NCBI GenBank assembly: GCA_002104905.1
Contig: MCFE01000243.1
Coordinates: 53,349-117,348 of the forward strand
Direction of reading: 5' to 3'
DNA length: 64,000 nucleotides
From: Basidiobolus meristosporus CBS 931.73
Taxonomy: Eukaryota; Basidiobolomycota; Basidiobolomycetes; Basidiobolales; Basidiobolaceae
Below, in pieces: positions 38,523 to 64,000 of this stretch. A model generated the notes under the pieces. That model was not told where the DNA came from, searched no databases, and saw only the letters and a program-made list of their open reading frames with translations. The position numbers and the translations under genes were made by a program. Each line of letters starts with the position of its first letter. The first letter of the stretch is position 1.

Positions 38523-38537
38523 TTAGGGTTAGGGGTC
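38523..38537 (+). repeat. Internal telomeric tract at copia / LINE-B junction
   Basis: TTTAGGGTTAGGGG. It joins the truncated copia element to the RNA 3' end of a LINE-B relative. Confidence 0.85.
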
Positions 38538-39328
38538 TATATTCTTTTATTGAATCTGATCAAGTATATTAATACCATTTCAACTTGATTCAAGTTAAAT
38601 AGTGCAAATTGTAAAAAGAAAATATATCTATGGTTATGTGAAGGTAAAAGATTTATCAAGTTGAGTTGAGTTCTGAAAAGAAATTTGTCAACAAATTAGG
38701 CTAGAAATGAAGTAAAGCTGGGAGTTATTTGAATGCAAAGAACCAAGTGAAAGTGTAGAGATATACTACCACTTCCTGGAAGGCAGGGATCTCACAGGAA
38801 GGCAGAAGCTCAGATCTAATTGCAGATATGATAGTGGAAAGTCTCTGTATGAGCTCCCTTTGTTTGTGAAATTGGAACAAAGAATAGGTATCTTTGAATC
38901 CAAAGCAGCTCTCTACATAAGAGAAGTAAAAATACCTGCTACAGTGGGGGCACTTGGAACCCAAGCAAAGTGTGCTCATTCTCCACCTTATGGCCAGGAA
39001 GGTAAAGAAGGAACTCCTGATGTAAAGGGATATGTCTGCTCCACTATGGGAATGTCTACTCTCATGAGAAATAAGCACAACTCTGTCTTTTGAGCTAGTA
39101 ACTCTGGAGATACTCTCCAGCTTCCTTTTATGCATTGCTATAGAGAGAGGAATATGCTCTCTAGGTGGCTTGGCACTGTTAGAGGCCAGATAATCTCTAT
39201 AACCATCAGGAAAGTGTATCTTCTTTCTCACCAATGACTTTCAGGTAGCTTGGACCAAGTTGTTAGTAATCTTATTGACTAATATCTTCAAAGGATTATT
39301 GGGTGATGATTTTGCATAGTGCTGCCTG
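38538..39328 (-). mobile_element. LINE-B family fragment (3' end of the element)
   Basis: The reading frame 39234-38725 (about 169 residues) matches the C-terminus of the LINE-B reverse-transcriptase protein at 43391-45634. Both contain RWRMSTLCLGSKCP.C, a C-terminal cysteine/histidine cluster, and then CFGFKDT and LFQFH. The two are clearly diverged, so this is a subfamily or an older copy. The element 3' end is to the left, next to the telomeric tract; the 5' side is cut at about 39328 and joined to TTAGGGGGG and the next element. Confidence 0.8.
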
Positions 39329-41617
39329 TTAGGGGGGAGACAGTCACCAACAGGTGAAATCTTTATTTCAGTTGAAACAAAGAAGCCAGCGCTACTGTTC
39401 TAGCTTTGATACAAGAGTGTGTAGCTGAGGGGAATTTGTAGGTAAGTTAATAAGAAGTGATGATAGTTCTTCAGTGCTCAAGACACTGTTCAGTGGGAAG
39501 GGGGGTAGCAAGAGAGGTAAGAATGACTTGTGAACAACATTAATGAGGGGAATGTGATAAGGGTTGATATTCATCATAAAGGGAGTGTGCTGCTGCAGAT
39601 ATTGCTGCCAAAGGTCTGTCAAGTACTTCAGGTAGGCCAGCTTGGGTTTTTCTGACTGCAGAATAAATTCAGCAAACTTCTTGACTGCAGGATCTCCAAG
39701 TATAGTTCTCCAGCAGGAGCCAGGTGTTGTGTGGTGTGTTCTCTTCCAGGCCTTAATCAGTGGGTTGCTGCAGTTGTGAAGTCTGAGGTATAATCTGGTT
39801 CTAAGGTAGAGAAGTCTGATCTTGTAGGGCATAAACCCAAAAGCACCAAGAATAGCATGTCTGTAGGGGCATTCAGGCAAATGAGGCACCAAGGAGGTAA
39901 TGCACCATACTGCAAACTTGTCAAGCTTAGTGCAGTCTCTAGAAGTAAGAGAGAGAAGTGGTAAGCCAAATTCCAGGACAGGGAAGACAAACTGCTTGAG
40001 TAGAAGGAGGCAGCTGGGCGCTGAAGTTGTAGGAGGAGTAACAGCCAGTAGCTTGTGGAGTGCCTGTCTTGCCAGGATAATTCTCTTCTTCAGGGGTGCT
40101 CCAGAGTCTAGTCCAGTAGGAAGGAAAGGAAAGCCAAGATATGTAGCAGAAACCTGAGCAGGTAGAGTGGAGTTCTCCAAGTTGATGGGAGAGCCCAAAG
40201 GTACTGTCTTTGCAATGGAAAGCTGGAGATTATTCTTCTGCAGATACTGGTGGATGGTCTGGGAGTCTTGTTGCACATTGGAGGAGGATATTCTGATGTC
40301 ATCAGCAAAGAGAGTAACCAGGCAGTCAGCTGAGAGTCTTGGGAAATCATTCAGGAAGATGGCAAACAGTATAGGACCAAGCACAGAGCCTTGAACCACT
40401 CCATTAGGAACTGAGAACACAGCTGATTGCTCACTTGGGTGCAGAATTCTTGCTTGTGGATCCAGAAACAGAGACCTGACAAGGAGCGTGAGAGAGGTAC
40501 TGGAGAAGCATTGCAACTTGGACCAAAGCAGATTTCTGTCAACTGAATCAAAGGCCTTAGTAATATCAAACAGAACTGAGGGATACTTGCACTGGAGAGA
40601 GTGATCTTGGCTAAGTATGACTGCATATTCCAAGGAGAGGCCAGGAACAAAGCCAAACTGTGCAGGATGAAACTTGAGTGAGTCAGAGTAGAGCTCCTGA
40701 GCAAGCAGAAGCTCAAACACCTTCCTGCAGGTGGGCAGCAGAGATATTGGCCTGTAGGAGCTAGGATCCAGGTGCTTTCCTTTACCCTTGTACAGTGGCA
40801 GAACATTTGCAAAGGACCATTCCTCAGGAGTAGAAAGCTGGGCTGAGCATTGTTGAAACAGTGGAAGCAGTAGTGCAGACATGGCCTTGGTACTAGTCTT
40901 CAGAAGCTCATAAGAGATTGTGTCCACACCTGGAGCAGTAGAGTTGGGAAGCCTCTTGAGCACATTATGGATTCTCCTTTGATCAAGTGCAAGTGGGATG
41001 GGCAGAGTCTTGAAGTCAGGATGAAAGCCAGGAGTTGAGTACTGCTTTGTAGAGAAGAAGATGTTAGCCAGCTGTTCTGTTGAAGGTAACTTCCTGGAAG
41101 AGGGCCTCATTGCCCTATAGAGTCTTGATACTGTTCTTGTTATAGAGTTGGAAGATTGCAGAGGCAAAGAACTCATAATATGATCCCAGAGCTGAGTATG
41201 CAGAGTGTGGTGAATTGCCTTGGAGTGATGTATTGCTGTCAGGAGGAGTATCTCTGTTTTTGGGTTAGGGAAACTCAGGTAGCTTTGTTCCAGGGCTGAA
41301 ACAATGGATTCCCATTTTCTTGAGGTAACAGCAGTAGTCTTGCATGGCAGTGAGAGGGAGGCAGACACCAGAATCAGATGCTTCACAAAGAGCCAGGCAT
41401 AGTTGAGATCATCTGGCAGAGAAAGTAGCAAACTGGCAAGCTTCAAGTAGTTCCCAAAGTCTTTCTTCTGATTCTTGGTAGCTTTGTGGGTGAGCACAGT
41501 AAGTTTTGGCAGCTTCTTCTTCACAACTGGTTGCATAGAAAGGGACCAGGCTGGGTGGTCAGAGGCTCTCAAGGATCCTAGCTCAGCTCCAGAGAATTGC
41601 TTAACTTCATCCACAAA
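39329..41617 (-). mobile_element. LINE-A copy 1, 5'-truncated in the endonuclease region
   Basis: Preceded at its 3' end by TTAGGGGGG (39329-39335). The non-coding tail on the minus strand ends TTTCACCTGTTGGTGA followed by CTGTCTCCCCCC and the telomeric complement; there is no poly(A). Homology with the longest copy (55237-59643) stops at 41617, after which GGTTAGGTTAGGG follows. The truncation point lies just upstream of the endonuclease S-D-H motif. Confidence 0.92.
39392..41614 (-). CDS. LINE-A ORF2, end of endonuclease plus complete reverse transcriptase
   Basis: 740 residues. The first part holds the last conserved block of an APE-type endonuclease (RASDHPAW). The reverse transcriptase follows with its usual blocks: WSFANVLPLYKGKGKHLDPS, SYRPISLLPTCRKVFE, LFDITKAFDSVDR, NGVVQGSVLGPILFAIFLND and the catalytic LVTLFADDIRI (F-A-D-D). 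The C-terminal region has a cysteine-containing helical part (CTKLDKFAVWCITSLVPHLPEC). The frame is uninterrupted through the natural stop, the best preserved RT of the LINE-A copies here, but it lacks most of the endonuclease and all of ORF1, so it is not autonomous. Confidence 0.9.
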   Translation of the reverse strand: MDEVKQFSGAELGSLRASDHPAWSLSMQPVVKKKLPKLTVLTHKATKNQKKDFGNYLKLASLLLSLPDDLNYAWLFVKHLILVSASLSLPCKTTAVTSRKWESIVSALEQSYLSFPNPKTEILLLTAIHHSKAIHHTLHTQLWDHIMSSLPLQSSNSITRTVSRLYRAMRPSSRKLPSTEQLANIFFSTKQYSTPGFHPDFKTLPIPLALDQRRIHNVLKRLPNSTAPGVDTISYELLKTSTKAMSALLLPLFQQCSAQLSTPEEWSFANVLPLYKGKGKHLDPSSYRPISLLPTCRKVFELLLAQELYSDSLKFHPAQFGFVPGLSLEYAVILSQDHSLQCKYPSVLFDITKAFDSVDRNLLWSKLQCFSSTSLTLLVRSLFLDPQARILHPSEQSAVFSVPNGVVQGSVLGPILFAIFLNDFPRLSADCLVTLFADDIRISSSNVQQDSQTIHQYLQKNNLQLSIAKTVPLGSPINLENSTLPAQVSATYLGFPFLPTGLDSGAPLKKRIILARQALHKLLAVTPPTTSAPSCLLLLKQFVFPVLEFGLPLLSLTSRDCTKLDKFAVWCITSLVPHLPECPYRHAILGAFGFMPYKIRLLYLRTRLYLRLHNCSNPLIKAWKRTHHTTPGSCWRTILGDPAVKKFAEFILQSEKPKLAYLKYLTDLWQQYLQQHTPFMMNINPYHIPLINVVHKSFLPLLLPPFPLNSVLSTEELSSLLINLPTNSPQLHTLVSKLEQ

Positions 41618-41820
41618 GGGTTAGGTTAGGGTGAAGGTGTTATAGTAAGGGCTAGGAAAAGGTTAGAAGAGCAGGGGGTCTGGGGGACGCAGTCCCCTAG
41701 AGAATAAAAAAGCAGGGGGTTTGGGGGATGCAATCCCCCATACTGCTCCCATACACTTTAAATTCCCATTGGATTACTTTTCTCTCATTCTTGGTTCTGG
41801 TCCCTTAGGGTTAGAATTCC
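41618..41820. repeat. Short repeat with two perfect G/C hairpins between telomeric tracts
   Basis: Bounded on the left by GGTTAGGTTAGGG and on the right by TTAGGGTTAGAATTCCTTAGGGTTAGGG. Hairpin 1 (41683-41697) has GGGGAC / GTCCCC arms with a GCA loop. Hairpin 2 (41722-41740) has TGGGGGAT / ATCCCCCA arms with the same GCA loop. The right half aligns with 36366-36475. It has no coding capacity and its type is unknown. Confidence 0.6.
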
Positions 41821-42218: not shown

Positions 42219-42225
42219 GGGTTAG

Positions 42226-43160
42226 GGGGGAGACAGTCACCAACAGGTGAAATCTTTATTTCAGTTGAAACAAAGAAGCCAGCGCTACTGTTGTAGCTTT
42301 GATACAAGAGTGTGTAGCTGAGGGGAATTTGTAGGTAAGTTAATAAGAAGTGATGATAGTTCTTCAGTGCTCAAGACACTGTTCAGTGGGAAGGGGGTAG
42401 CAAGAGAGGTAAGAATGACTTGTGAACAACATTAATGAGGGGAATGTGATAAGGATTGATATTCATCATAAAGGGAGTGTGCTGCTGCAGATATTGCTGC
42501 CAAAGGTCTGTCAAGTACTTCAGGTAGGCCAGCTTGGGTTTTTCTGACTGCAGAATAAATTCAGCAAACTTCTTGACTTCAGGATCTCCAAGTATAGTTC
42601 TCCAGCAGGAGTCAGGTGTAGTGTGGTGTGTTCTCTTCCAGGCCTTAATCAGTGGGTTGTTGCAGTTGTGAAGTCTGAGGTATAATCTGGTTCTAAGGTA
42701 GAGAAGTCTGATCTTATAGGGCATAAACCCAAAAGCACCAAGAATAGCATGTCTGTAGGGGCATTCAGGCAAATGAGGCACCAAGGAGGTAATGCACCAT
42801 ACTGCAAACTTGTCAAGCTTGGTGCAGTCTCTAGAAGTAAGAGAGAGAAGTGGTAAGCCAAATTCCAGGACAGGGAAGACAAACTGCTTGAGTAGAAGAA
42901 GGCAGCTGGGAGCTGAAGTTGTAGGAGGAGTAACAGCTAGTAGCCTGTGGAGTGCCTGTCTTGCCAGGATAATTCTCTTCTTCAGGTGTGCTCCAGAGTC
43001 TAGTCCAGTAGGAAGGAAAGGAAAGCCAAGATATGTAGCAGAAACCTGAGCAGGTAGAGTGGAGTTCTCCAAGTTGATGGGAGAGCCCAAAGGTACTGTC
43101 TTTGCAATGGAAAGCTGGAGATTATTCTGCTGCAGATACTGGTGGATAGTCTGGGAGTCT
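42226..43160 (-). mobile_element. LINE-A copy 2, truncated within reverse transcriptase
   Basis: Covers the 3' tail and the C-terminal third of ORF2 (frame 43090-42383). A one-base loss in a G-run near 42391 relative to copy 1 shifts the last residues, so the natural C-terminus is lost. Homology ends at about 43160, after the equivalent of copy 1 position 40270, and TTAGGGTTAGG follows directly. Confidence 0.9.
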
Positions 43161-43170
43161 TAGGGTTAGG

Positions 43171-43235
43171 GGGGGAGACAGTCACCAACAGGTGAAATCT
43201 TTATTTCAGTTGAAACAAAGAAGCCAGCGCTACTG
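43171..43235 (-). mobile_element. LINE-A copy 3, 65-bp remnant
   Basis: Only the last 65 or so bases of the LINE-A RNA are present. TTAGGGTTAGG stands on the left and GGTTAGGGTTAGG on the right (43236-43248). It is too short to be a recombination relic of an ORF; severe 5' truncation is the simplest reading. Confidence 0.9.
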
Positions 43236-43390
43236 GGTTAGGGTTAGGCTTTTAGATACTTTATTGTGAATTTCATATAGTGCTTACTAATACAAAGAGA
43301 AAAGTACAATAGGTAGCTATACATGAACATCTGAAAGAATAGCTATTGCTGGCTCTATGATGCCTAACTAATACTATAAGGGCACTCTTG

Positions 43391-45634
43391 CTACTCAATA
43401 TATGTTGAATGCAGCAACTCTGGCCTAATTGCTGAGATTATAGCTGACAGCCTCATGATGAGTGCTTTTTGAGAATGAAACTGAAACAGTGCATCAGTAT
43501 CTTTAAAACCAAAGCACTTCTCAGCATGAGTATAGTGAAAGTAGCTATTGCATCTTGGGCACTTAGAACCCAAGCACAAAGTACTCATTCTCCATCTGAT
43601 TGCTTGCAGTGCAAAAAAGCAATCACTGATGTAGAAAGAAACATCTGCCTGGCTATTGGAATGACGACTTGTAGCTGAGATCAGTCCAATTCTGTCTCTT
43701 GATGTTGAGACTCTGGAAATATTGTTAAGCTTTCTGAGAGCCATAGCCACAGAAAGTGGTACATGTGTAGACTCTTTCTCAATCAAATATCCTTGGTAAC
43801 CTTTTGAGCAGTGTATATCTTGATAAATCAGAGAACCTTTGGAGACAGGCATTTTCTCAGTCTTAATGCCTCTCACTAAGCTTTGCAGTGGATTATTTGG
43901 AGATGCTTGGGCATAATGATTGCCAAACTTGATTCCTAGTGTTTCAAATCGATCACAAACTGCTTCAATTCCACATATGCTACAAATCAGTCTTTTATAC
44001 TGCCCAGTGTGATAGTTTGAAGCATTCACTACCCAGCCAAGTGCTTGCTGCTGAATAAGCTCAAGCTTTAGCAATTGCAACTTGCAGAGTGATATATTCA
44101 TGACAGGGGCAGCATACTCCCATCTTGATCGGATATAATCCCTAAATAAATGTAGCTTCACTAGTGGATGCCATCCAGAGCTATTGTGCTGAAGTACTGC
44201 TAGTGTACTTGCTGCCTTAGACACACAGCGCTCAATATGCAGAGGCCAGTCTATTCCTTTGTTGGTAACAGGGAGTCCTAAATAGAAGTATGTGGATGGC
44301 ATTGGGAGCTTTATACCACCCCATGAGATATTCCATGAAGGATCTGAACCGATGAATGCAGATTTGGAAATGTTAACTTCCATTGCATTCTTTGAGCACC
44401 ATAGACTTAGGCTATCCAACATCAAGTTAGCATGCTTGATAGTGCTTGGTATAAGCATAATATCATCAGCAAACAGCAATACGGAAGGAATTGTTGTTGT
44501 ATTTGCAAATGAAGCTAAGTCACCAGCCAAATCATTGATGTAAATATTGAAAAGAAATGGCGACAGCAGTGAGCCTTGAAAAAGACCACGGTATCTTGGA
44601 AATGGCAATGAACGCAAGCCATTAATACTGACAGTAGAGTAGCAGTTGGTAAATAAAGAGTATATTAGCTTCAAAAGCTGCATTGATGCTCCTAGCAGCT
44701 GTAGCTTGTGGAGTAGCTTAGGAATTATTACTCGATCATAGGCCTGTTTAAGATCAATGAATATGCGATTTGCTCTTGTATTTTCTCCCATAAGATAGAA
44801 TAGATCATGGGATATTACTGAGTGTGTAATGGTGGAGTAGCCTTTGCGGAAGCCTGCCTGTAGTGGATGGAGTCTGGACAGCTCTAATGTGTTCATGTGC
44901 TTGAGTAGACATGCTTCAAATAGTCTTCTGAACATGGTGGTTAGAGCCACTGGCCTAAATCCATCAATTGTAGTGGATGAAGTCTTCTTTGGGATTGGAT
45001 GAATATGGGATATGTTCCACTGAGATGGGGTGCAACCCAGTCTAAGGCAGGAGTGAAACAATAGCAGCAGATCATTGAGAAAACTTGATGATTGCGACAG
45101 AGCTTTGATAATGCGGATGTGCAATGGATCCATCCCAGATGACTTAGATGAAGGATATTTGCGGATTACATCCACAAGCGTACTTAGCTCAAATGATGAG
45201 GATGAAGAAAGCAAGTCTTTAAAGTGCATTCTACTTGGAGGTACATAACCTTCCAAAAGCTCAGTTGGAGTGGGCATTGCAAAAATCTGCTTATAATAGT
45301 TGACCGCATCATCTAAAGCAGAAATGCAAGTGTCCCTTGAGTTAATAAATAAATGCGCATTTTGTATTCTTTGTGTACTTTTATAAAGCCTAGAGGCCTC
45401 TTGAGCTGCAGTCCTGGAGTTGCTCATCTTAAATATGCGCATTGTGGACAAGTTTGGTGTCTGATGCTTTTGTTGCACAGAGTAACTTCCAAGGAAATAT
45501 TCACAGGTGGAGACCACTATTGAATTGAAAAGGGTGCTGGTTGCATCAATTGCGGCAGTTATCTTTGGCATTGGGCTCTGGCTATTGAGCTGACTAAGGA
45601 GCTTCCAAGCTGGCACCAGCATTGGTGACTCCAT
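43391..45634 (-). CDS. LINE-B ORF2, reverse transcriptase part
   Basis: 747 residues. RT blocks: ISHIHPIPKKTSSTTIDGFR, FRPVALTTMFRRLFE, RIFIDLKQAYDRV, RGLFQGSLLSPFLFNIYIND and the catalytic LLFADDIMLI. The C-terminus carries a Cys/His cluster (CLGSKCPRCNSYFHYTHAEKC), as in several LINE clades. It is in the +1 frame relative to the endonuclease; either ribosomal frameshifting or a one-base mutation separates them. The RT itself has no internal stop. Confidence 0.87.
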   Translation of the reverse strand: MESPMLVPAWKLLSQLNSQSPMPKITAAIDATSTLFNSIVVSTCEYFLGSYSVQQKHQTPNLSTMRIFKMSNSRTAAQEASRLYKSTQRIQNAHLFINSRDTCISALDDAVNYYKQIFAMPTPTELLEGYVPPSRMHFKDLLSSSSSFELSTLVDVIRKYPSSKSSGMDPLHIRIIKALSQSSSFLNDLLLLFHSCLRLGCTPSQWNISHIHPIPKKTSSTTIDGFRPVALTTMFRRLFEACLLKHMNTLELSRLHPLQAGFRKGYSTITHSVISHDLFYLMGENTRANRIFIDLKQAYDRVIIPKLLHKLQLLGASMQLLKLIYSLFTNCYSTVSINGLRSLPFPRYRGLFQGSLLSPFLFNIYINDLAGDLASFANTTTIPSVLLFADDIMLIPSTIKHANLMLDSLSLWCSKNAMEVNISKSAFIGSDPSWNISWGGIKLPMPSTYFYLGLPVTNKGIDWPLHIERCVSKAASTLAVLQHNSSGWHPLVKLHLFRDYIRSRWEYAAPVMNISLCKLQLLKLELIQQQALGWVVNASNYHTGQYKRLICSICGIEAVCDRFETLGIKFGNHYAQASPNNPLQSLVRGIKTEKMPVSKGSLIYQDIHCSKGYQGYLIEKESTHVPLSVAMALRKLNNISRVSTSRDRIGLISATSRHSNSQADVSFYISDCFFALQAIRWRMSTLCLGSKCPRCNSYFHYTHAEKCFGFKDTDALFQFHSQKALIMRLSAIISAIRPELLHSTYIE

Positions 45635-45647
45635 CTCATAATGGGAG

Positions 45648-46379
45648 CTAATAAGACTTTCGGATTATAGGGTTGTCTAATGGCTGCAAGTAAAGTTTGA
45701 TAGCATCTGATTCATAGTGTGTATGCATGACTTGCTGACGTAAGGAAATATCTGCTAGCATGAATACATGATCTGAGTGTGCCTTAAGTGTCTCACACTG
45801 AAAGGACCACTTACTGGGGTACCTATGGCTGATAAATGCATGATCTGGGGTATTCTTAGGTAGGCTTGGTATGAGATGCCGAAGGCCCAGTTGCAATGCC
45901 AATTGCTCAAAAATATTAATGCGTTCTTGTGGTCCCACCCTCTGTACGCCATGTGCACTACCAAAGTGCGTGTTGATATCTCCAATCAAGGCTGTGAGTG
46001 GTTGGCATGGCAGATACCTCACTAGGGTTGAGCATGGCATAGCTGGGGGGAAATATACCGCCATAATGCTTACAGAGCATAATTCAATAGTGATGGTATA
46101 CTCTGTAGCTATGATGCTTGAAACCTGACTCCGCAACTGGGGAGAAATCAAACATAAAAGACCAGCTTTGTGATGACCACGTACTGGCTTTGGAGCAACT
46201 TGAGATGATGAAGCAAGAAAGCATGGGTGTGACACATGCAATGCTTGGTCTACAAACCATGTTTCAGCTAAAAAAATAATATCATATGGGTTGTCTAATA
46301 AGCAAGTAACTTTTTTCCACTTCACGATGCTTAATCCACAGCAGTTCCAATACCCTATCTTGAGGGATGGCTGGGTCAT
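45648..46379 (-). CDS. LINE-B ORF2, APE-type endonuclease part
   Basis: The start is taken as the ATG at 46377-46379, which shares ATGA with the ORF1 stop; a GTG upstream would add three residues. AP-endonuclease motifs appear in order: W-N-C-C-G-L, A-E-T-W (catalytic Glu), G-D-I-N (Asp and Asn), D-H-A-F and the final S-D-H. This enzyme nicks target DNA so that the free 3' end can prime reverse transcription. The frame ends with TAG at 45648-45650. The RT frame is open upstream of its ATG and overlaps, in the +1 register, so endonuclease and RT are separated by one frame change. Confidence 0.85.
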   Translation of the reverse strand: MTQPSLKIGYWNCCGLSIVKWKKVTCLLDNPYDIIFLAETWFVDQALHVSHPCFLASSSQVAPKPVRGHHKAGLLCLISPQLRSQVSSIIATEYTITIELCSVSIMAVYFPPAMPCSTLVRYLPCQPLTALIGDINTHFGSAHGVQRVGPQERINIFEQLALQLGLRHLIPSLPKNTPDHAFISHRYPSKWSFQCETLKAHSDHVFMLADISLRQQVMHTHYESDAIKLYLQPLDNPIIRKSY

Positions 46380-47968: not shown

Positions 47969-48112
47969 GATTGCATTAAACTGGCGGTAGTTGCAGCTTT
48001 TATAGCAACTAAAACATATGGTGACGTATTCTTGAGAGCATTTGAAGTGAAGGCTGTTTCACTTGAATTGGAACATGCTGCACTGGCTTATTACAACTGG
48101 TCACAGGCAAGG

Positions 48113-48556
48113 ACATTTAATACAAGACATAACTAACGGTTTTGGGGAGTTGGTGCGCATTTGTGTAAGGTGCTAGTAGTAGGTGAAATATAGTTTTGAT
48201 GAAGCTTTGGTATATCACGGCACCACGCGGTAGTAAAGCAAACCAAGATATTATGACAACAACATTTAACACAAGACATAACTAAAGGTTTTGGGGAGTT
48301 GGTACACATTTGTGTATGGCACTAGTAGTAGGTGGAATGTAGTTTTGATGAAGCTTTGGTATATCATGGCACCACGTGGTAGTAAAGCAAACCAAGATTT
48401 TATGACAACATTTAACACAAGACATAACTAAAGGTTTTGGGGAGTTGGTACGCATTTGTGTATGGCACTAGTAGTAGGTAGAATGTAGTTTTGATGAAGC
48501 TTTGGGATATCTTGACACCACGCGGTAGTAAAGCAAACCAAGATTTCGTGACAGGC
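48113..48556. repeat. Three 146-149-bp tandem repeats
   Basis: Units begin ACATTTAA(T/C)ACAAGACATAAC at 48113, 48262 and 48408. They contain GGTTTTGGGGAGTTGGT, a CACTAGTAGTAGGT block and a CACCACGYGGTAGTAAAGC block. Units differ by a few substitutions. They stand directly upstream of LINE-B in its transcription direction and could be 5' UTR promoter monomers, or an unrelated subtelomeric satellite. Confidence 0.85.
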
Positions 48557-48985: not shown

Positions 48986-49059
48986 TATGTAAACATGATT
49001 TACAAAGCGTAAATCAGCAACAACTGTGGGACTATCTTGAGTACTCTTGCCACCCGCAA

Positions 49060-54523: not shown

Positions 54524-54564
54524 CTTTGAGAACTGCTGAGTTCATTGCCAAGTACACTCGGGAA

Positions 54565-54570
54565 TATATA
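54565..54570 (-). promoter_or_regulatory. TATA box of the 53963 gene
   Basis: TATATA lies about 42 bases upstream of the ATG at 54523. It is conserved in the duplicated promoter at 49840-50043. Confidence 0.6.
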
Positions 54571-54696
54571 GCATGGGAACCATTATAACATGGTTACAAC
54601 GTTGATGGTAGCAATAGTTAGTTAACTTTATCAGATTGAAAATTAGCATTCGCTCTGCCATCATCGGCTCAATCGCATTGATATCGCGTACTTTAT

Positions 54697-54714
54697 TTAG
54701 GGTTAGGGTTAGGG
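54697..54714 (+). repeat. Internal telomeric tract cutting the promoter duplication
   Basis: TTAGGGTTAGGGTTAGGG. Homology with 50043 stops at 54690, six bases before the tract begins. Confidence 0.9.
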
Positions 54715-55236
54715 GGGAAAGTCACCAAGTGGTGAAATCTTTATTTACTTATGACAAGTATCTAAAGAAGCCAAGTTAATCTGAAGTTATTCCTAGAAAG
54801 CTAGGTCTGAGAGATATCTTCCTGGTAAGCCAGGTCTGAGAGTTAAGAGGCTGAGTGGTACTGTATTTCCTAGTTAGCTAGGTCTGAGAGAGGTTTCCTG
54901 GAAAGCCAGGCCTGAGAAGTGAGAATCTGAATATATCTGAGCTAAGTTATACTGGTTTGCGGTAGCTGAATTGTGGCCGGAATGGCCAGTAGACTGGGGG
55001 AACTGAGATGAATTTCTGGGCGATCACAGGCCAAATTTACTAGGCAAATATGGCCAATTAGCATTTCAAGGATTTCAGCCAATCGGAGCCTTTACTTTGC
55101 CCAATGGTTGATCAAGCCATCTCCCAATGAGCACATATCAATTTATTAATCAAATTTTGCTGGATCCAGGATTTGAACCCACAACCATGGGTATGGATGG
55201 GTTAGGGATAACCACAAGGCTAAGTGTTCTTGGTTG
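54715..55236 (-). mobile_element. Telomeric SINE copy 2, full length
   Basis: Its RNA 3' end (left) abuts the telomeric tract. The 5' end (right), read on the minus strand, begins AACCAAGAACACTTAGCC and holds a tRNA-like promoter. TAGCCTTGTGGTTA fits an A box, and GGTTCAAATCCTGG (about 55160-55174) is a near-perfect B box. Copy 4 begins at the same base, which defines the 5' end. The body of about 370 bp is non-coding and the tail resembles that of LINE-A. Confidence 0.88.
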
Positions 55237-55295
55237 GGGGGAGACAGTCACCAACAGGTGAAATCTTTATTTCAGTTGAAACAAAGAAGCCAGCG

Positions 55296-58030
55296 CTACT
55301 GTTGTAGCTTTGATACAAGAGTGTGTAGCTGAGGGGAATTTGTAGGTAAGTTAATAAGAAGTGATGATAGTTCTTCAGTGCTCAAGACACTGTTCAGTGG
55401 GAAGGGGGGTAGCAAGAGAGGTAAGAATGACTTGTGAACAACATTAATGAGGGGAATGTGATAAGGATTGATATTCATCATAAAGGGAGTGTGCTGCTGC
55501 AGATATTGCTGCCAAAGGTCTGTCAAGTACTTCAGGTAGGCCAGCTTGGGTTTTTCTGACTGCAGAATATAGTGAGCAAACGTCTTGACTTCAGGATCTC
55601 CAAGTATAGTTCTCCAGCAGGAGTCAGGTGTTGTGTGGTGTGTTCTCTTCCAGGCCTTAATCAGTGGGTTGTTGCAGTTGTGAAGTCTGAGGTATAATCT
55701 GGTTCTAAGGTAGAGAAGTCTGATCTTATAGGGCATAAACCCAAAAGCACCAAGAATAGCATGTCTGTAGGGGCATTCAGGCAAATGAGGCACCAAGGAG
55801 GTAATGCACCATACTGCAAACTTGTCAAGCTTAGTGCAGTCTCTAGAAGTAAGAGAGAGAAGTGGTAAGCCAAATTCCAGGACAGGGAAGACAAACTGCT
55901 TGAGTAGAAGGAGGCAGCTGGGAGCTGAAGTTGTAGGAGGAGTAACAGCCAGTAGCTTGTGGAGTGCCTGTCTTGCCAGGATAATTCTCTTCTTCAGGTG
56001 TGCTCCAGAGTCTAGTCCAGTAGGAAGGAAAGGAAAGCCAAGATATGTAGCAGAAACCTGAGCAGGTAGAGTGGAGTTCTCCAAGTTGATGGGAGAGCCC
56101 AAAGGTACTGTCTTTGCAATGGAAAGCTGGAGATTATTCTTCTGCAGATACTGGTGGATGGTCTGGGAGTCTTGTTGCACATTGGAGGAGGATATTCTGA
56201 TGTCATCAGCAAAGAGAGTAACCAGGCAGTCAGCTGAGAGTCTTGGGAAATCATTCAGGAAGATGGCAAACAGTATAGGACCAAGCACAGAGCCTTGAAC
56301 CACTCCATTAGGAACTGAGAAAACAGCTGATTGCTCACTTGGGTGCAGAATTCTTGCTTGTGGATCCAGAAACAGAGACCTGACAAGGAGGGTGAGAGAG
56401 GTACTGGAGAAGCATTGCAACTTGGACCAAAGCAGATTTCTGTCAACTGAATCAAAGGCCTTAGTAATATCAAACAGAACAGAGGGATACTTGCACTGGA
56501 GAGAGTGATCTTGGCTAAGTATGACTGCATATTCCAAGGAGAGGCCAGGAACAAAGCCAAACTGTGCAGGATGAAACTTGAGGGAGTCAGAGTAGAGCTC
56601 CTGAGCAAGCAGAAGCTCAAACACCTTTCTGCAGGTGGGCAGCAGAGATATTGGCCTGTAGGAGCTAGGATCCAGGTGCTTTCCTTTACCCTTGTACAGT
56701 GGCAGAACATTTGCAAAGGACCATTCCTCAGGAGTAGAAAGCTGGGCTGAGCATTGCTGAAACAGTGGAAGCAGAAGTGCAGACATGGCCTTGGTACTAG
56801 TCTTCAGAAGCTCATAAGAGATTGTGTCCACACCTGGAGCAGTAGAGTTGGGAAGCCTCTTGAGCACATTATGGATTCTCCTTTGATCAAGTGCAAGTGG
56901 GATGGGCAGAGTCTGGAAGTCAGGATGAAAGCCAGGAGTTGAGTACTGCTTTGTAGAGAAGAAGATGTTAGCCAGCTGTTCTGTTGAAGGTAACTTCCTG
57001 GAAGAGGGCCTCATTGCCCTGTAGAGTCTTGATACTGTTCTTGTTATAGAGTTGGAAGATTGAAGAGGCAAGGAACTCATAATATGATCCCAGAGCTGAG
57101 TATGCAGAGTGTGGTGAATTGCCTTGGAGTGGTGTATTGCTGTCAGGAGGAGTTTCTCTGTTTTTGGGTTAGGGAAGCTCAGGTAGCTTTGTTGCAGGGC
57201 TGAAACAATGGATTCCCATTTTCTTGAGGTAACAGCAGTAGTCTTGCATGGCAGTGAGAGGGAGGCAGACACCAGAATCAAGATGCTTCACAAAGAGCCA
57301 GGCAAAGTTGAGATCATCTGGCAGAGAAAGTAGCAAACTGGCAAGCTTCAAGTAGTTCCCAAAGTCTTTCTTCTGATTCTTGGTAGCTTTGTGGGTGAGC
57401 ACAGTAAGTTTTGGCAGCTTCTCTTCACAACTGGTTGCATAGAAAGGGACCAGGCTGGGTGGTCAGAGGCTCTCAAGGATCCTAGCTCAGCTCCAGAGAA
57501 TTGCTTAACTTCATTCACAAAGTAGAGGGCAGCAGCAGAAGGGCAGATCCAGTCAACACATCTTTTCTCAGATTGAGCACCTAGTGCTAGCAGATGGCTT
57601 TCTCTCAGGAAGTTCAGTAGGAATGTAGACCTTGGCTTCATTCTTGCAGTCAGAGTAGTCTTGTTCTCAGGATGGGGAATGTTGAGATCTCCAAGCAAGA
57701 TAACAAGGTGTTGATATAGACTGTTGGTATTGCTGAACCTTCTGGCATATAACTTGCACTTCCTGAAGGGCTAGACTTGGAGGCAGATAGCAGAGCACCA
57801 GACTGATAGTTGGCAACTGGAGAGCAGCACAGTAAGGGGAGTAAAGAGGAACACAGAGCTGAGGAGTATTGATGGTAGAAGAGATGAAGCAGATAGAGGA
57901 GGTATTCTTTGTTCTAGGAGTAGAAAAGCAATATAGATTAGTCAAAAGTATAGAGGGTAGCTGGACATCAATCAAACACAGGCAGGGAAAATCTTGAAAG
58001 AAGTCTCTCTAGAGTTGGTCTTGATGGCTG
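55296..58030 (-). pseudogene. LINE-A ORF2, endonuclease and reverse transcriptase, broken
   Basis: Endonuclease pieces lie at 57975-57667 and 57698-57348 (MLGDLNIPHP with the G-D-L-N motif, and RASDHPAW). The RT frame 57281-55296 (661 residues) is intact and nearly identical to copy 1, including LVTLFADDIRI. Against copy 1, an extra A near 57281 and a missing base near 57421 throw the endonuclease out of frame with the RT. Confidence 0.85.
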
Positions 58031-58066
58031 TATGCTGTTGCAGTTAAGCAACAGAACTTCAGGTAG

Positions 58067-59603
58067 TCAGGCAGAGGTTGTAGCTTCTTCAGAGGCAGCA
58101 TTAACAATGTGACCTGCAGAGTCCCAGAGCTCTTCAAATGGTGGATCACTTAAGTCAGCAAGGAGGGAAATGGCATGGTTCTTGAGGAAGTATGCCACAT
58201 CATAGGAGGGGGCTTGTCTCTTGATGGCAGCAAAGAAAGACAGAATGGCAACATGGGCTGGAGGCTTGTTGAACAGTAGAGAGTCAGAGGATTCAGATTC
58301 TTCAGGCACTATCTTGAAGTCAGTTTTCAGCCAGTTAAGGTTCTTCTCCACAAAGGCAACAAATGGGTCAGCAATGTTTTGGTCTAGGATAACCTCCAGA
58401 ATCTTCCCTTTTCTCCAGGCCAGGTTGACAATTCTTGAGAGCTGAATATTGCATGCCTTGAGTGCTTTCCTGATGTTGGAAATGGGGGTCCAGGGAACTT
58501 GCTTCAAGTACACCACAGTCCAGGTAGAAGCTGGTGGTAGGTTTGCTGGGGGCTTGTAAGTCCTTCTGTGTTGCAATGGAGCTGCAGTAGTCAGATTGGA
58601 GTCCACATTCTCAGTAGAAGGTTTTCTTGATGGTGTCTTGCTGAATAGTACTGGAGCTGGATGTGCTGATAATTCTTGCTAGAACCTTGCCTGCATAAGT
58701 CTGAGGTATAGCTGAGGTGACTGTAGAGGTGGTGGCAGCTGGTGCAGGTGGAGAGGCAGAGACTGAAGCAGGAACTGAGGTCACCTGGGAGAAGGCAGTA
58801 GAAGCAGGTTTTCTGGGAGGAACAGAGTTCACTATCCAGTTGTTCTGTAAAACACTGGAGTAGCTTTTCTGTGGAACAGGATCTTGCTCTTGAACAGGAA
58901 CAGAAGCAGGAGGCTGGGGCTGAGCAGTAGTGGTAAGGCAGTGGCACTCCAAGGAAGCTTTTTGCAAGGCATCTCTGGCAGTTTTCAGGGCAGTATTGGC
59001 TTCATTCTTGAGCTTCTTGCATTGGGCATCCAGTCTCTTGTTTTCAATAGCCAGGGCAGTATTGGCAGCCTCTAAATCAGCAATTCTCTTCTCAATTGCA
59101 AGGAATCTCTGAAGAAATGCATCAGTAGAAGTGCTGGCATCTGGGAGAGCAGTGGCAGGAATAGAGTCCATTGACAGTGGGCTTCTTGGAGGCAAGGAAA
59201 GTGGACTGGCAGATTCAGGCACAAAAGGAGATATCCTGGCAGGAGGAGAAGGAGTATCCAAGGCAGTAACAGAGGCAATTCTTGTTGGTGAAGCAGCAGC
59301 AGGGGAGGCAAGCCTGTTCAAAAACTGGGCAGGAGAGAGTGCTTGAGGAGAGGGAGTCTTCAGCTTGCCAAGCATGTCTTCCATCAGAGTGATACCAATA
59401 TTCCTGGTGCATTTGCAGAGAAAAGTAAGCTTCCTGAGTCTGCCAGCTCTTCCATTCCTTCTGATAGTTCCTTTGTTTCCACAGTTGGGGCAAGAAATCT
59501 TCTTGACAGACTTGTCAAAGCAATCAAGAACCTTCCTTTCAGGTGTAGTGGGCTCCTGTTGAGGTTTTGGTGGCATATCCAGAGTTTCAGCTTCAAATTT
59601 CAA
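58067..59603 (-). pseudogene. LINE-A ORF1 (two frames: 59603-58611 and 58606-58067)
   Basis: The first frame (330 residues) has a Cys cluster at 38, 41, 63 and 65 (C-P-N-C and C-K-C), then Pro/Ser-rich linkers and a coiled-coil-like stretch (FLAIEKRIADLEAANTALAI). The second frame (about 179 residues, open upstream of its apparent GTG start) begins with an RNA-binding-like segment (STWTVVYLKQVPWTPISNIR, ILEVILDQ). The frames are shifted by +1 at about 58611. The second part is homologous to the ORF1-like protein at 59877-60440. Whether the shift is mutational or programmed is unclear. Confidence 0.75.
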
Positions 59604-59643
59604 TTTTTGAGATTTTTGGGTGATTTTGATGGCGGGATCAAAA

Positions 59644-59658
59644 TTAGGGTTAGGGTTG
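59644..59658 (+). repeat. Internal telomeric tract
   Basis: TTAGGGTTAGGGTT at the truncated 5' side of LINE-A copy 4. It is followed by about 120 bp of unrecognised sequence (59659-59780) containing an ATGG tetranucleotide run. Confidence 0.85.
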
Positions 59659-59780
59659 CGCGCTGTGACTGCTTTTTACGATCGCAAGGTCAGATCTAGG
59701 AAAAATAAAATAGTTAGTAAGGTGATTTAATGGATGGATGGATGGATTCGGAGTCAGATCATCAATCGTGATATAGAGGA

Positions 59781-60753
59781 TTAGGAGGGGATGATCATCA
59801 CCAAAGGGTGAAATCTTTATTTAAATAATAAATAAAGAAGCCAAGTTTGAATATGAATATCTGAGATGCAGGAAGCCTACAAGATAAACTTGGACTTTGC
59901 TGTATCCCAAATATCCTCAATATCAAAGTCTAGAGGAGAGTGTAGCAAGACTGCTTGCTCACTGTAGTATTTCTTGAGGAAGTTTGTGACTTGAAGGGAA
60001 GGAGAGTTTTTCAACAAGCTGGTAAATCTTTTGAGGAGTTCTTTTTCCAGAGAGAATGGCACAAAGAGTGGAATGTCCAAATGATGTCTGAATATATGCT
60101 CTGAGAGCTCCCAATCCAGCATATTTTTGACTTCTTCTGTAAAATCTTCAACAATATCTTTGTCAAGAATAACTTCCAAGAGATCTCTGGCAATGTACTG
60201 AATGTTAATAATCTTAGGCATATGAATACCTAGGTCCTTGAGGTAGTTTCTTTGTTCTGATACTGGGAGATATCCTGCATTTCTGAAATAGCAAACAGCC
60301 CAGTTGGCAGTAGGAGGAGTATCAGGGCTGACAGGGAATCTTCTTCTGGCTTTAGAGTGCACTGGCTTAGGAGACTGTCTTGATGGAAGGCAGCTGGTTT
60401 TGGATGAGCTTGAAGTGCTTGGGAGTAGGTCTGAGTACAAGTAGTAGAAGTTGCTGGTTGCTGAGAATTTTCAGATTGACTGGATGAAGAGCTAATTGAG
60501 GGGTTGCAAGGTAAGGAAGAAGCTGAAAGAGAAGTGGAGAGGGCTGGGTGAAGTTCAGAAAGAGTTTTGAAAAGAATTTGGATCTGAGATTTCAACATTG
60601 AGTTTTCAGCTTCAAGAAGAGAAACTCTTTGTTCAAGGTAAGAAGTCTGTAAAGCGTGAAAGTTGGGTAAAGACATGGAAGAAGTAGATAATAAGAAGAA
60701 AAGAGTAGTTGGGGTGGGAGGGTGGGAAAATAGTTAAGAAGAAAAGAGAGGGG
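59781..60753 (-). mobile_element. ORF1-only retroelement with LINE-A-like tail
   Basis: The RNA 3' tail (left) reads, on the minus strand, TTTCACCCTTTGGTGATGAT then CATCCCCTCCTAA, the same hairpin-plus-C-run design as LINE-A. It is adjacent to GATTAGGAGGGG, a worn telomeric motif. The stop of the ORF1-like frame is only about 90 bases from this end, so no endonuclease or RT was lost between them. The 5' side ends at GGGTTAGGGTTAGGG (60752 onward). About 970 bp in all. Confidence 0.8.
59877..60676 (-). CDS. ORF1-like protein of the ORF1-only element (two overlapping frames)
   Basis: The N-terminal frame 60676-60230 begins MSLPNFHALQTSYLEQRVSL with a short coiled coil and then a Ser/Gln-rich region. 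The C-terminal frame 60440-59877 carries the conserved domain: NWAVCYFRNAGYLPVSEQR and DLLEVILDKDIVEDF match STWTVVYLKQVPW and KILEVILDQNIADPF of LINE-A ORF1, and FLKKYYSEQ..DIEDIWDTA matches FLKNHAIS..FEELWDSA. The frames change (-1) between about 60440 and 60330. It lacks the N-terminal Cys cluster of LINE-A ORF1. It would bind RNA but cannot reverse-transcribe it. Confidence 0.75.
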
Positions 60754-60783
60754 GTTAGGGTTAGGGTAGGGGTTAGGGTTAGG
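60754..60783 (+). repeat. Internal telomeric tract (imperfect)
   Basis: TTAGGGTTAGGGTAGGGG followed by TTAGGGTTAGGG: five units with one altered. Confidence 0.9.
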
Positions 60784-61109
60784 GGGGAGGACAGTCACCA
60801 AGTGGTGAAATCTTTATTTACTTATGACAAGTATCTAAAGAAGCCAAGTTAATCTGAAGTAATTCCTAGAAAGCTAGGTCTGAGAGATATCTTCCTGGTA
60901 AGCCAGGTCTGAGAGTTGAGAAGCTGAGTGGTACTATATTTCCTAGTTAGCTAGGTCTGAGAGAGGTTTCCTGGAAAGCCAGGCCTGAGAAGTGAGAATC
61001 TGAATATATCTGAGCTAAGTTATACTGGTTTTGCGGTAGCTGAATTGTGGCCGGAATGGCCAGTAGACTGGGGGAACTGAGATGTATTTCTGGGCGATCA
61101 CTGGCCATA
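60784..61109 (-). mobile_element. Telomeric SINE copy 3, 5'-truncated
   Basis: Tail and body match copies 1, 2 and 4. Homology stops at about 61109 (after CACTGGCCATA) and TTTAGGGGGG follows. The tRNA-like part is absent. Confidence 0.9.
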
Positions 61110-61114
61110 TTTAG

Positions 61115-61642
61115 GGGGGAGGAAAGTCACCAAGTGGTGAAATCTTTATTTACTTATGACAAGTATCTAAAGAAGCCAAGTTAATCTGAAGTTATTCCTA
61201 GAAAGCTAGGTCTGAGAGATATCTTCCTGGTAAGCCAGGACTGAGAGTTGAGAAGCTGAGTGGTACTATATTTCCTAGTTAGCTAGGTCTGAGAGAGGTT
61301 TCCTGGAAAGCCAGGCCTGAGAAGTGAGAATCTGAATATATCTGAGCTAAGTTATACTGGTTTGCGGTAGCTGAATTGTGGCTGGAATGGCCAGTAGACT
61401 GGGGGAACTGAGAGGAATTTCTGGGCAATCACTGGCCAAATTTACTAGGCAAATATGGCCAATTAGCATTTCAAGGATTTCAGCCAATCAGAGCCTTTAC
61501 TTTGCCCGATGGTTGATCAAGCCATCTCCCAATGGGCACACATCAATTTATTAATCAAATTTTGCTGGATCCAGGATTTGAACCCACAACCATGGGTATG
61601 GAAGGGTTAGGGATAACCACAAGGCTAAGTGTTCTTGGTTTT
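61115..61642 (-). mobile_element. Telomeric SINE copy 4, full length
   Basis: Joined to copy 3 through TTTAGGGGGG and ending on the right at the same 5' base as copy 2 (..GTTCTTGGTT), followed by TTAGGGGGGG. The A and B boxes of the tRNA-like promoter are present (B box at about 61570-61584). It is the best copy for defining the consensus. Confidence 0.9.
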
Positions 61643-61649
61643 AGGGGGG

Positions 61650-63756
61650 GGGGAGACAGTCACCAACAGGTGAAATCTTTATTTCAGTTGAAACAAAGAA
61701 GCCAGCGCTACTGTTGTAGCTTTGATACAAGAGTGTGTAGCTGAGGGGAATTTGTAGGTAAGTTAATAAGAAGTGATGATAGTTATTCAGTGCTCAAGAC
61801 ACTGTTCAGTGGGAAGGGGGGTAGCAAGAGAGGTAAGAATGACTTGTGAACAACATTAATGAGGGGAATGTGATAAGGATTGATATTCATCATAAAGGGA
61901 GTGTGCTGCTGCAGATATTGCTGCCAAAGGTCTGTCAAGTACTTCAGGTAGGCCAGCTTGGGTTTTTCTGACTGCAGAATATAGTGAGCAAACTTCTTGA
62001 CTTCAGGATCTCCAAGTATAGTTCTCCAGCAGGAGCCAGGTGTTGTGTGGTGTGTTCTCTTCCAGGCCTTAATCAGTGGGTTGTTGCAGTGGTGAAGTCT
62101 GAGATATAATCTGGTTCTAAGGTAGAGAAGTCTGATCTTATAGGGCATAAACCCAAAAGCACCAAGAATAGCATGTCTGTAGGGGCATTCAGGCAAATGA
62201 GGCACCAAGGAGGTAATGCACCATACTGCAAACTTGTCAAGCTTAGTGCAGTCTCTAGAAGTAAGAGAGAGAAGTGGTAAGCCAAATTCCAGGACAGGGA
62301 AGACAAACTGCTTGAGTAGAAGGAGACAGCTGGGAGCTGAAGTTGTAGGAGGAGTAACAGCCAGTAGCTTGTGGAGTGCCTGTCTTGCTAGGATAATTCT
62401 CTTCTTCAGGTGTGCTCCAGAGTCTAGTCCAGTAGGAAGGAAAGGAAAGCCAAGATATGTAGCAGAAACCTGAGCAGGTAGAGTGGAGTTCTCCAAGTTG
62501 ATGGGAGAGCCCAAAGGTACTGTCTTTGCAATGGAAAGCTGGAGATTATTCTTCTGCAGATACTGGTGGATGGTCTGGGAGTCTTGTTGCACATTGGAGG
62601 AGGATATTCTGATGTCATCAGCAAAGAGAGTAACCAGGCAGTCAGCTGAGAGTCTTGGGAAATCATTCAGGAAGATGGCAAACAGTATAGGACCAAGCAC
62701 AGAGCCTTGAACCACTCCATTAGGAACTGAGAACACAGCTGATTGCTCACTTGGGTGCAGAATTCTTGCTTGTGGATCCAGAAACAGAGACCTGACAAGG
62801 AGGGTGAGAGAGGTACTGGAGAAGCATTGCAACTTGGACCAAAGCAGATTTCTGTCAACTGAATCAAAGGCCTTAGTAATATCAAACAGAACAGAGGGAT
62901 ACTTGCACTGGAGAGAGTGATCTTGGCTAAGTATGACTGCATATTCCAAGGAGAGGCCAGGAACAAAGCCAAACTGTGCAGGATGAAACTTGAGAGAGTC
63001 AGAGTAGAGCTCCTGAGCAAGCAGAAGCTCAAACACCTTTCTGCAGGTGGGCAGCAGAGATATTGGCCTGTAGGAGCTAGGATCCAGGTGCTTTCCTTTA
63101 CCCTTGTACAGTGGCAGAACATTTGCAAAGGACCATTCCTCAGGAGTAGAAAGCTGGGCTGAGCATTGCTGAAACAGTGGAAGCAGAAGTGCAGACATGG
63201 CCTTGGTACTAGTCTTCAGAAGCTCATAGGAGATTGTGTCCACACCTGGAGCAGTAGAGTTGGGAAGCCTCTTGAGCACATTATGGATTCTCCTTTGATC
63301 AAGTGCAAGTGGGATGGGCAGAGTCTGGAAGTCAGGATGAAAGCCAGGAGTTGAGTACTGCTTTGTAGAGAAGAAGATGTTAGCCAGCTGTTCTGTTGAA
63401 GGTAACTTCCTGGAAGAGGGCCTCATTGCCCTGTAGAGTCTTGATACTGTTCTTGTTATAGAGTTGGAAGATTGCAGAGGCAAGGAACTCATAATATGAT
63501 CCCAGAGCTGAGTATGCAGAGTGTGGTGAATTGCCTTGGAGTGGTGTATTGCTGTCAGGAGGAGTTTCTCTGTTTTTGGGTTAGGGAAGCTCAGGTAGCT
63601 TTGTTGCAGGGCTGAAACAATGGATTCCCATTTTCTTGAGGTAACAGCAGTAGTCTTGCATGGCAGTGAGAGGGAGGCAGACACCAGAATCAGATGCTTC
63701 ACAAAGAGCCAGGCAAAGTTGAGATCATCTGGCAGAGAAAGCAGCAAACTGGCAAG
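61650..63756 (-). mobile_element. LINE-A copy 5, truncated in ORF2
   Basis: Runs from the C-tract RNA 3' end to the region just before the RT N-terminal extension. Homology ends at 63756 (GGCAAGC), where TTAGGGTTAGGG starts. Reverse-transcriptase blocks are intact. A substitution near 61784 turns a Glu codon into a stop 24 codons before the natural end. It is the second element from the chromosome end. Confidence 0.92.
61783..63756 (-). pseudogene. LINE-A ORF2 fragment in copy 5 (reverse transcriptase)
   Basis: The frame covers the RT from before WSFANVLPLYKGKG through LVTLFADDIRI to the C-terminal helical region, ending early at 61783. It has no start codon of its own: upstream in frame lie the telomeric repeats and the 34-bp copy 6, so any start in that direction is chimeric. 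It lacks ORF1 and the endonuclease. Confidence 0.85.
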
Positions 63757-63768
63757 CTTAGGGTTAGG
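63757..63768 (+). repeat. Last internal telomeric tract
   Basis: Exactly TTAGGGTTAGGG, between truncated LINE-A copy 5 and the 34-bp copy 6. Confidence 0.95.
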
Positions 63769-63802
63769 GGGGGAGACAGTCACCAACAGGTGAAATCTTT
63801 AT
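63769..63802 (-). mobile_element. LINE-A copy 6, 34-bp terminal remnant
   Basis: GGGGAGACAGTCACC and onward to GAAATCTTTAT: only the last 34 bases of LINE-A RNA, with the terminal hairpin and C-tract. TTAGGG repeats stand on both sides. It is the outermost non-telomeric sequence of the chromosome. Confidence 0.93.
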
Positions 63803-64000
63803 TTAGGGTTAGGGTTAGGGTTAGGGTTAGGGTTAGGGTTAGGGTTAGGGTTAGGGTTAGGGTTAGGGTTAGGGTTAGGGTTAGGGTTAGGGTTAGGGTT
63901 AGGGTTAGGGTTAGGGTTAGGGTTAGGGTTAGGGTTAGGGTTAGGGTTAGGGTTAGGGTTAGGGTTAGGGTTAGGGTTAGGGTTAGGGTTAGGGTTAGGG
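63803..64000 (+). repeat. Telomere, 33 uninterrupted TTAGGG repeats
   Basis: 198 bases of perfect TTAGGG running off the window with the G-rich strand pointing outward (5' to 3' to the right). The orientation shows this is a true right chromosome end and that telomerase-type repeats are in use. Confidence 0.98.

Follow-up and report, generated by a model that had tools for sequence, protein, structure and literature searches.

The right-hand end of a contig from the fungus Basidiobolus meristosporus CBS 931.73 carries a head-to-tail array of non-long terminal repeat (non-LTR) retroelements interspersed with the telomere repeat TTAGGG. We describe it from a 64,000-nucleotide stretch of DNA (the window; C473:53349-117348), the right end of which is the end of the 117,348-base contig C473. 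The array comprises two long interspersed nuclear elements (LINE-A and LINE-B), a short interspersed nuclear element (SINE) and further short families. We consider it probable, at roughly two chances in three, that these elements form a telomere-dwelling community whose members are copied by priming from the 3' end of the telomere G strand and are then capped by telomerase, with a new element being added after wear or breakage. The evidence consists of the orientation of the copies, their position at contig ends, their joins to the G strand, variable truncation, capping at the point of truncation, very short copies, one healed break and the presence of a telomerase gene.

In the window, 33 perfect TTAGGG repeats close the right end, and inward of these lie 12 element copies and an open reading frame (ORF) 1-type element, all on the minus strand between 38,536 and 63,804 with their RNA 3' ends facing the centromere. 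An earlier note on this DNA had claimed this arrangement, and it was borne out when the six LINE-A copies, the four SINE copies and the ORF1-type element were each aligned to a reference and gave a single orientation; the two LINE-B copies are relatives, with 58% amino acid identity across 149 amino acids of their C-termini. The motif TTAGGGTTAGGG has 41 matches in the window, all of them on the plus strand and at or to the right of 38523 (shuffle mean, 0.01).

The same polarity was found across the genome surveyed (89,006,234 bases in 1311 contigs). The 28-nucleotide (nt) LINE-A 3' end occurs exactly 639 times (596 forward and 43 reverse; 807 occurrences with at most one mismatch), and TTAGGG lies 0 to 10 nt upstream of 503 of these exact occurrences, while CCCTAA takes its place in none of the 639 and the junction pattern read backwards has no match genome-wide. 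These counts agree with the earlier proposal of priming from a G-strand 3' end. The SINE 3' end has 469 occurrences with at most one mismatch, and 1636 matches were counted for the common hairpin pattern; the LINE-B family, with 11 matches at up to three mismatches, is small. With regard to position, among the 100 LINE-A matches listed all 38 copies on contigs of at least 50 kb (24 contigs, of exact length) lie no more than 18.2 kb from an end, at a median of 4.1 kb, and point inward with their RNA 3' ends, the chance of such end proximity alone being 0.19 per copy. On contigs below 50 kb, 47 of the 62 copies among these matches obey the nearest-end rule, which says little there because most of the lengths are interpolated and short contigs may be array throughout; both strands were represented on only one of 62 contigs (C291), by one copy per end. 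Matches to LINE-A-type protein (the first 65 of 225) gave a similar picture on contigs of at least 50 kb, with 52 of 53 having the same outward orientation and 50 of 53 lying within 25 kb of an end (lengths mostly interpolated by size rank); two LINE-A-type copies lie 27 and 33 kb from ends, again with interpolated lengths. LINE-A copies are thus confined to telomeres and have telomere-repeat junctions, with exceptions on C558 and C726; a uniform orientation at contig ends, which the earlier note had put forward as its check, held for the 38 copies and failed for an inverted copy on C726 and for a copy 97 kb inside C558. As a separate observation, five consecutive TTAGGG repeats match 6978 times in forward and 73 times in reverse orientation; at about 25 matches per terminal tract this amounts to about 280 contig ends with a telomere, almost all of them right-hand ends, which suggests very many chromosomes together with an assembler habit.

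Junctions were read in 16 fetched contig stretches plus the window, which together hold 63 copies with the hairpin described below. On the inner side, TTA directly precedes the G-run in 49 of the 63 copies, the run being 5 to 10 nt long and most commonly 6 (42 of the 100 matches listed). On the outer side, 39 of the 63 copies are cut short at a point where telomere-like sequence takes over; others comprise seven full-length SINEs, three full-length LINE-A copies, three at a contig end and three used as references. In the fetched ends, LINE-A truncation points range from 24 nt beyond the hairpin start to full length and differ among ends, and copies that are about 98-99% identical have different neighbours. 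Some copies are very short: the outermost copy in the window is about 38 nt long and bears the present telomere, and on C2 TTAGGGTTAGGG is followed by GGGAGACAGTCAC, about 13 nt of the LINE-A 3' end, beyond which come TTAGGG and the next copy. Tracts between consecutive elements measure at most 10 nt in 25 of 27 cases (median 7), while terminal tracts span 196-235 bp in eight fetched ends, a ninth (C23) being split by other bases. Of the 39 truncated telomeric joins, 32 could be phased and scored, and 24 of these share a microhomology of at least 2 nt with the telomere phase, as compared to 25.9% of simulated joins put through the same pipeline (binomial, 9e-9). The mean overlap was 2.06 versus 1.07 in simulation (176 of 100000 resamples); this null, passed through the same BLAST steps, replaced a simple one with a mean of 0.75 and weakens the mean-based test to that value, whereas the test on the number of joins sharing at least 2 nt remains strong. 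Microhomology of this kind is the expected look of telomerase priming on a complementary DNA (cDNA) 3' end, although template jumping onto telomere DNA could also give it; the joins are in line with the earlier claim that truncated copies are capped with TTAGGG. On C14 and C25 (loci L038 and L041), copies of LINE-A and FAM4 are interrupted at varying positions by sequences starting TTGTAA/TGTTGTAA, which may represent a separate mobile element.

The features of the array and its surroundings are, from the centromere side outward (RVT_1 and RVT_2, reverse transcriptase (RT) domains):

37342..38520, minus strand: Copia-type pol fragment under the array, ending at the first TTAGGG (RVT_2, E 1.3e-19 for the ORF at 37342-37908)
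38521..38535, plus strand: TTAGGG tract, the first junction of the array
38536..39328, minus strand: LINE-B copy 1, 5'-truncated (C-terminal ORF2 fragment at 38725-39234)
39332..41619, minus strand: LINE-A copy 1, 5'-truncated at reference position 2274 (98.6% identical to the full-length copy; RVT_1, E 1.6e-25)
41620..41820, minus strand: telomere-like tract and a 188-bp FAM7 piece (41,633-41,820) with relatives on C45, C32 and C1
41821..42219, minus strand: TTAGGG tract and SINE copy 1, truncated at 377 of 513
42220..43162, minus strand: TTAGGG tract and LINE-A copy 2, truncated at 925
43163..43235, minus strand: TTAGGG tract and LINE-A copy 3, only 53 nt beyond the hairpin start
43236..48553, minus strand: TTAGGG tract, LINE-B copy 2 and a 146-bp tandem repeat in its 5' flank (RVT_1, E 3.2e-27; ORF1 at 46376-47968, endonuclease-like ORF at 45648-46388, RT ORF at 43391-45634)
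48600..54693, no strand: non-retroelement subtelomeric block (one probe, also found on C474, C187 and C1176)
54694..54716, plus strand: healed break, AGGGTTAGGGTTAGGG joined to ..GTACTTTATTT, where C187 runs on as ..GTACTTTATTTGGTTACAACACG
54717..55235, minus strand: SINE copy 2, full length (513 nt from the hairpin), with A and B boxes
55236..59750, minus strand: LINE-A copy 4, full length to at least 59643, with frameshifted ORFs, and its 5' untranslated region with TTAGGGTTAGGG
59785..60753 (start also given as 59,799), minus strand: FAM4, the ORF1-type short element (ORF at 59877-60440)
60754..61112, minus strand: TTAGGG tract (about 34 bp) and SINE copy 3, truncated at 317
61113..61640, minus strand: SINE copy 4, full length, with tRNA-like A and B boxes
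61641..63760, minus strand: TTAGGG/G-run and LINE-A copy 5, truncated at 2100
63761..63804, minus strand: AGGGTTAGGG and LINE-A copy 6, only 24 nt beyond the hairpin start and capped directly
63803..64000, plus strand: terminal telomere, 33 x TTAGGG

Three further occurrences of TTAGGG were rejected as junctions: that at 59,644 belongs to the LINE-A 5' region, followed by TTAGGGTTAGGGTTGCGCGC in all three full-length copies seen, and those at 55,202 and 61,607 both lie inside the SINE head; none of the three was among the junctions named in the earlier note. The LINE-A 5' region (59644-59655 in the window, and on C3 and C29) has its own TTAGGGTTAGGG, and on C29 also a tandem repeat of about 120 bp. 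Just inside the array, at 10887-33622, are two very large ORFs of 6237 and 1283 amino acids, named by eye as nonribosomal peptide synthetase (NRPS)-like, and a piece resembling them lies near 48.8 kb.

The elements and TTAGGG joins of the array claimed at 38523..64000 stand, but its extent has to be revised, as about 6 kb between the two array parts (48.6-54.7 kb) is ordinary subtelomeric DNA and not retroelement. A 601-base probe from the LINE-B 5' flank and a 501-base probe from the block gave 98-100% matches on C187, C1176 and C474. Flank and block, at 48020-51400, are near-identical on the four contigs, likely through chromosome-end exchange. The array was thus not built by addition alone, the presence of the block on three other contigs suggesting recombination or duplication. 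At the outer border of the block, the window reads GTACTTTATTT-AGGGTTAGGGTTAGGG-SINE while C187, which carries the same block, reads GTACTTTATTT-GGTTACAACACGACAAATACACTG (a comparison of 90 bases). The join at 54,697 is thus a healed break, at which the distal part was lost and telomere repeats, followed by elements, were gained. C474 was discarded as an empty-site comparison for this join, as the contig (116,636 bases) ends before that point.

The RNA 3' ends of LINE-A, the SINE, FAM3, FAM4 and FAM5 share a structure of two hairpins, of which the outer has a CACC/GGTG stem and the inner (H2) a 10-pair stem; z values for the five families run from -2.5 to -4.3. Among 20 distinct sequences, pair 10 of H2 is CG (6), GC (6), AT (7) or TG (1), the other pairs being mostly invariant. 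By their shared 3' sequence and hairpins, the SINE and the short families appear to be paired with LINE-A. The 3' ends are a G-run on the plus strand and not a poly(A) tail. A seventh short family, FAM7, is without the shared hairpin yet also follows TTAGGG; it has relatives on three fetched contigs, i.e., C45, C32 (two, one of 63 bp) and C1 (115 bp). The SINE head has an A box at 14 and a B box at 57, each with one mismatch to the RNA polymerase III box consensus (0 of 2000 shuffles). ARAGORN and Rfam found no tRNA in the SINE, and a tRNA origin was dropped for want of a match to a tRNA model, which leaves just the two box motifs. On C96 (10654-12799), five SINE 3' ends about 525 bp apart form a tandem of full-length-sized SINEs.

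With regard to the proteins, a full-length LINE-A on C29 encodes an ORF1 of 502 amino acids with a Cys-rich start and a 781-amino-acid, ATG-initiated ORF with the RT, and many copies in the genome keep an open frame of 922 codons. The closest proteins are metagenome sequences of unknown host, 60-80% identical; one of about 900 amino acids, P0002 (64% identical), stands in here for the LINE-A protein of the window. Exo_endo_phos was found in P0002 at E 7e-5, below Pfam's cut-off, and Exo_endo_phos_2 in P0006 at E 3e-6; the window fragment at 57348-57770 gave an endonuclease match at E 0.027 only. A structural model of P0002 (mean confidence score, pLDDT, 83.9) matches human L1 ORF2p with its endonuclease (E 1.5e-29), and its best endonuclease-only fold match is TRAS1 (1wdu; template modelling (TM) score 0.68 by target). 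LINE-A relatives are thus predicted to carry an apurinic/apyrimidinic endonuclease (APE)-type fold. Pfam, which may hold no model of the restriction-like endonuclease (REL), reported no REL domain in these relatives. In a search of Protein Data Bank (PDB) sequences, the LINE-A RT was nearer to L1 ORF2p (E 4e-13) than to R2 (E 0.07). In a 12-sequence alignment, P0002 and P0004 have Asp where all 10 other LINE endonucleases have Glu, presumably the metal-binding Glu, and the window copy also has Asp; the idea of a dead LINE-A endonuclease was dropped, since this is a single site and the other conserved residues are kept. LINE-B is nearest to elements of Smittium (also fungal) and to metagenome proteins; its endonuclease ORF gave no Pfam domain and no match in the PDB sequence search, and since Pfam finds none, its endonuclease motifs are those recognized by eye. 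Finally, a telomerase (TERT) RNA-binding domain lies on C880, with two pieces above Pfam's cut-off, which together with the TTAGGG ends upholds the earlier statement that a telomerase-type telomere is kept.

In the proposed mechanism, the full-length type is LINE-A, with ORF1 and an ORF2 that has a predicted APE-type endonuclease and a reverse transcriptase. Copying would be primed by the 3' end of the G strand of the telomere, which would explain why the RNA 3' end always faces the centromere. Synthesis of the cDNA would halt at varied points, from 13 nt to full length, and telomerase would then probably seal the cDNA 3' end with TTAGGG; once this end is worn or broken, the next element could be added. 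The SINE and the short families may use the enzyme of LINE-A, and the usual primer may be a free worn or broken end and not a nick.

A number of observations weigh against this account. TTAGGG is missing within 10 nt of 136 of the 639 exact LINE-A 3' ends, 15 of the 62 listed copies on contigs below 50 kb point the wrong way for the nearer end, and 8 of the 63 fetched copies end outward in non-telomeric sequence. C726 carries an inverted copy 11 kb from its end, and on C558 a LINE-A copy (97132-98079) lies 97 kb inside a 218-kb contig; in each case CCCTAA-type sequence and then other element sequence still adjoin the 3' end, so that these look like displaced pieces of array. The SINE breaks two of the 10 H2 pairs, and three in one copy. 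Microhomology at the 5' join is also known for ordinary LINE insertion. In addition, the fetched ends were mostly picked for holding LINE-A, so that the share of arrays among all telomeres lies beyond this sample. Two further points concern the primer. The APE fold is kept in LINE-A relatives, which leaves room for nicking of the G strand inside the telomere, and in MoTeR interstitial tracts of at least three repeats are reported to break (PMC7367193). As MoTeR tracts are also short after breakage, the short tracts here may be remnants of fragile longer ones; they are compatible with both a free end and a nick, and were dropped as proof, taken alone, of addition at the end. Independently of these points, the C558 copy is joined to CCCTAACCCTAA, a possible chromosome fusion or chimeric contig.

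The alternative that survives best is telomere-targeted insertion as proposed for TRAS, MoTeR and FoTeR, in which an APE nick of the G strand inside double-stranded repeats would be followed by ordinary target-primed reverse transcription, the outer flank being old telomere. The APE-type endonuclease predicted in LINE-A relatives, with TRAS1 as its best endonuclease-only match, and the similar arrays of MoTeR and FoTeR speak for it, and we regard it as a serious if distinctly less likely explanation. Insertion at random points in a full telomere misfits the contrast between the short inter-element tracts and the long terminal ones unless sequence was lost later; the join at 54,697 is a broken end rather than an insertion site within old telomere; and the Asp of LINE-A-type endonucleases replaces an otherwise uniform Glu, even though other conserved residues are kept.

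A more speculative variant of end-addition, which we find rather doubtful but worth stating, is that the element RNAs act as mobile telomerase templates: the C-run tail, probably continuing into CCCUAA, would pair over 2-4 nt with an exposed 3' end, and the LINE enzyme would write 3-10 nt of TTAGGG. Pairing of a C-rich RNA tail with the exposed end would explain both the tracts of 3-10 nt and the microhomology of 2-4 nt. If so, telomerase would be needed just for the final cap, and the SINE would ride the LINE to patch worn chromosome ends without a nick.

It is very improbable that recombination alone, i.e., break-induced replication that copied and shuffled one ancestral array between ends, with healing by telomerase and few recent retrotransposition events, produced the pattern. 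The near-identity of LINE-B flank and block on four contigs, the near-identical 120-bp tandem copies on C2 and the regularly spaced SINEs on C96 are what such a process would leave, but LINE-A copies differ between ends in where they are truncated, the shortest reaching 24 nt beyond the hairpin start and the longest being full length, nearly identical copies have different neighbours, and even two 120-bp tandem copies differ in join sequence. An array produced by repeat collapse or chimeric joins in the assembly is scarcely credible, since, despite the possibly chimeric or fused appearance of C558 and C726 and the odd right-end bias of telomeric matches (6978 versus 73), many contigs with different sequences show the same succession of element, short TTAGGG and element, and the polarity is the same at 503 junctions.

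Addition at G-strand ends followed by telomerase capping bears on an old question, namely whether telomerase and end-adding retroelements can share chromosome tips and how the handover between them works, a question tied to the divergence of telomerase and LINEs. Hundreds of natural end-additions, some just tens of nucleotides long, can be read in one telomerase-bearing fungus. Two aspects appear to be new: a LINE of predicted APE type at fungal telomeres, where the known elements are of REL type, and an abundant tRNA-like SINE with three short families that share its two-hairpin 3' end. We found no description of a telomeric SINE in the open-access library searched, nor, judging from its listings, of Basidiobolus telomere elements.

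Several known systems resemble parts of this one. In Drosophila, HeT-A, TART and TAHRE copies share one direction, their RNA 3' ends facing the centromere, and probably add to free ends; to our knowledge Drosophila is without telomerase, whereas TERT and TTAGGG ends are present in Basidiobolus. In pairs of the UnaL2/UnaSINE type the 3' end of the SINE copies the hairpin tail of the LINE; unlike these, the Basidiobolus pair lives at telomeres. TRAS and SART of Bombyx are, like LINE-A, telomere-repeat elements with an APE-type endonuclease. The likeness to Bombyx claimed earlier is half right, as SART and TRAS insert in opposite orientations (PMC10088271) and SART1Bm, which carries a poly(A) tail and requires three or more repeats, is described as integrating within the telomere, not at its tip (PMC7265360); LINE-A RNA, by contrast, ends in a C-run without poly(A). 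Cnl1 of Cryptococcus forms subtelomeric arrays with truncated copies, as in Basidiobolus, but is related to R2 and MoTeR and also inserts into a reporter gene (PMC12810828). FoTeR of Fusarium oxysporum is a telomere-confined non-LTR element with TTAGGG at both junctions, again as in Basidiobolus; unlike LINE-A, it belongs to the REL/CRE clade with MoTeR1 and Cnl1 and has three to seven repeats at its 3' junction, and no SINE is mentioned in the parts consulted (PMC12857005). Like the Basidiobolus elements, MoTeR1 and MoTeR2 of Magnaporthe oryzae form head-to-tail arrays in TTAGGG telomeres, with the 5' ends pointing outward; 5'-truncated copies occur, the interstitial tracts are short, a partner that is non-autonomous has the same 3' end, and telomerase is retained (PMC7367193). 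MoTeR2 shares 77 bp at its 3' end, whereas the region common to at least four non-autonomous families of Basidiobolus, the tRNA-like SINE among them, is about 60 nt long and contains two hairpins. The endonuclease of MoTeR is of REL type (CRE/SLACS group), whereas the relative of LINE-A is predicted to fold as an APE-type enzyme. The Basidiobolus array would extend the fungal telomere elements to the APE type and add a telomere-dwelling SINE to them. LINE-A works like MoTeR, FoTeR and Cnl1 but, by its predicted endonuclease, is probably of another kind.

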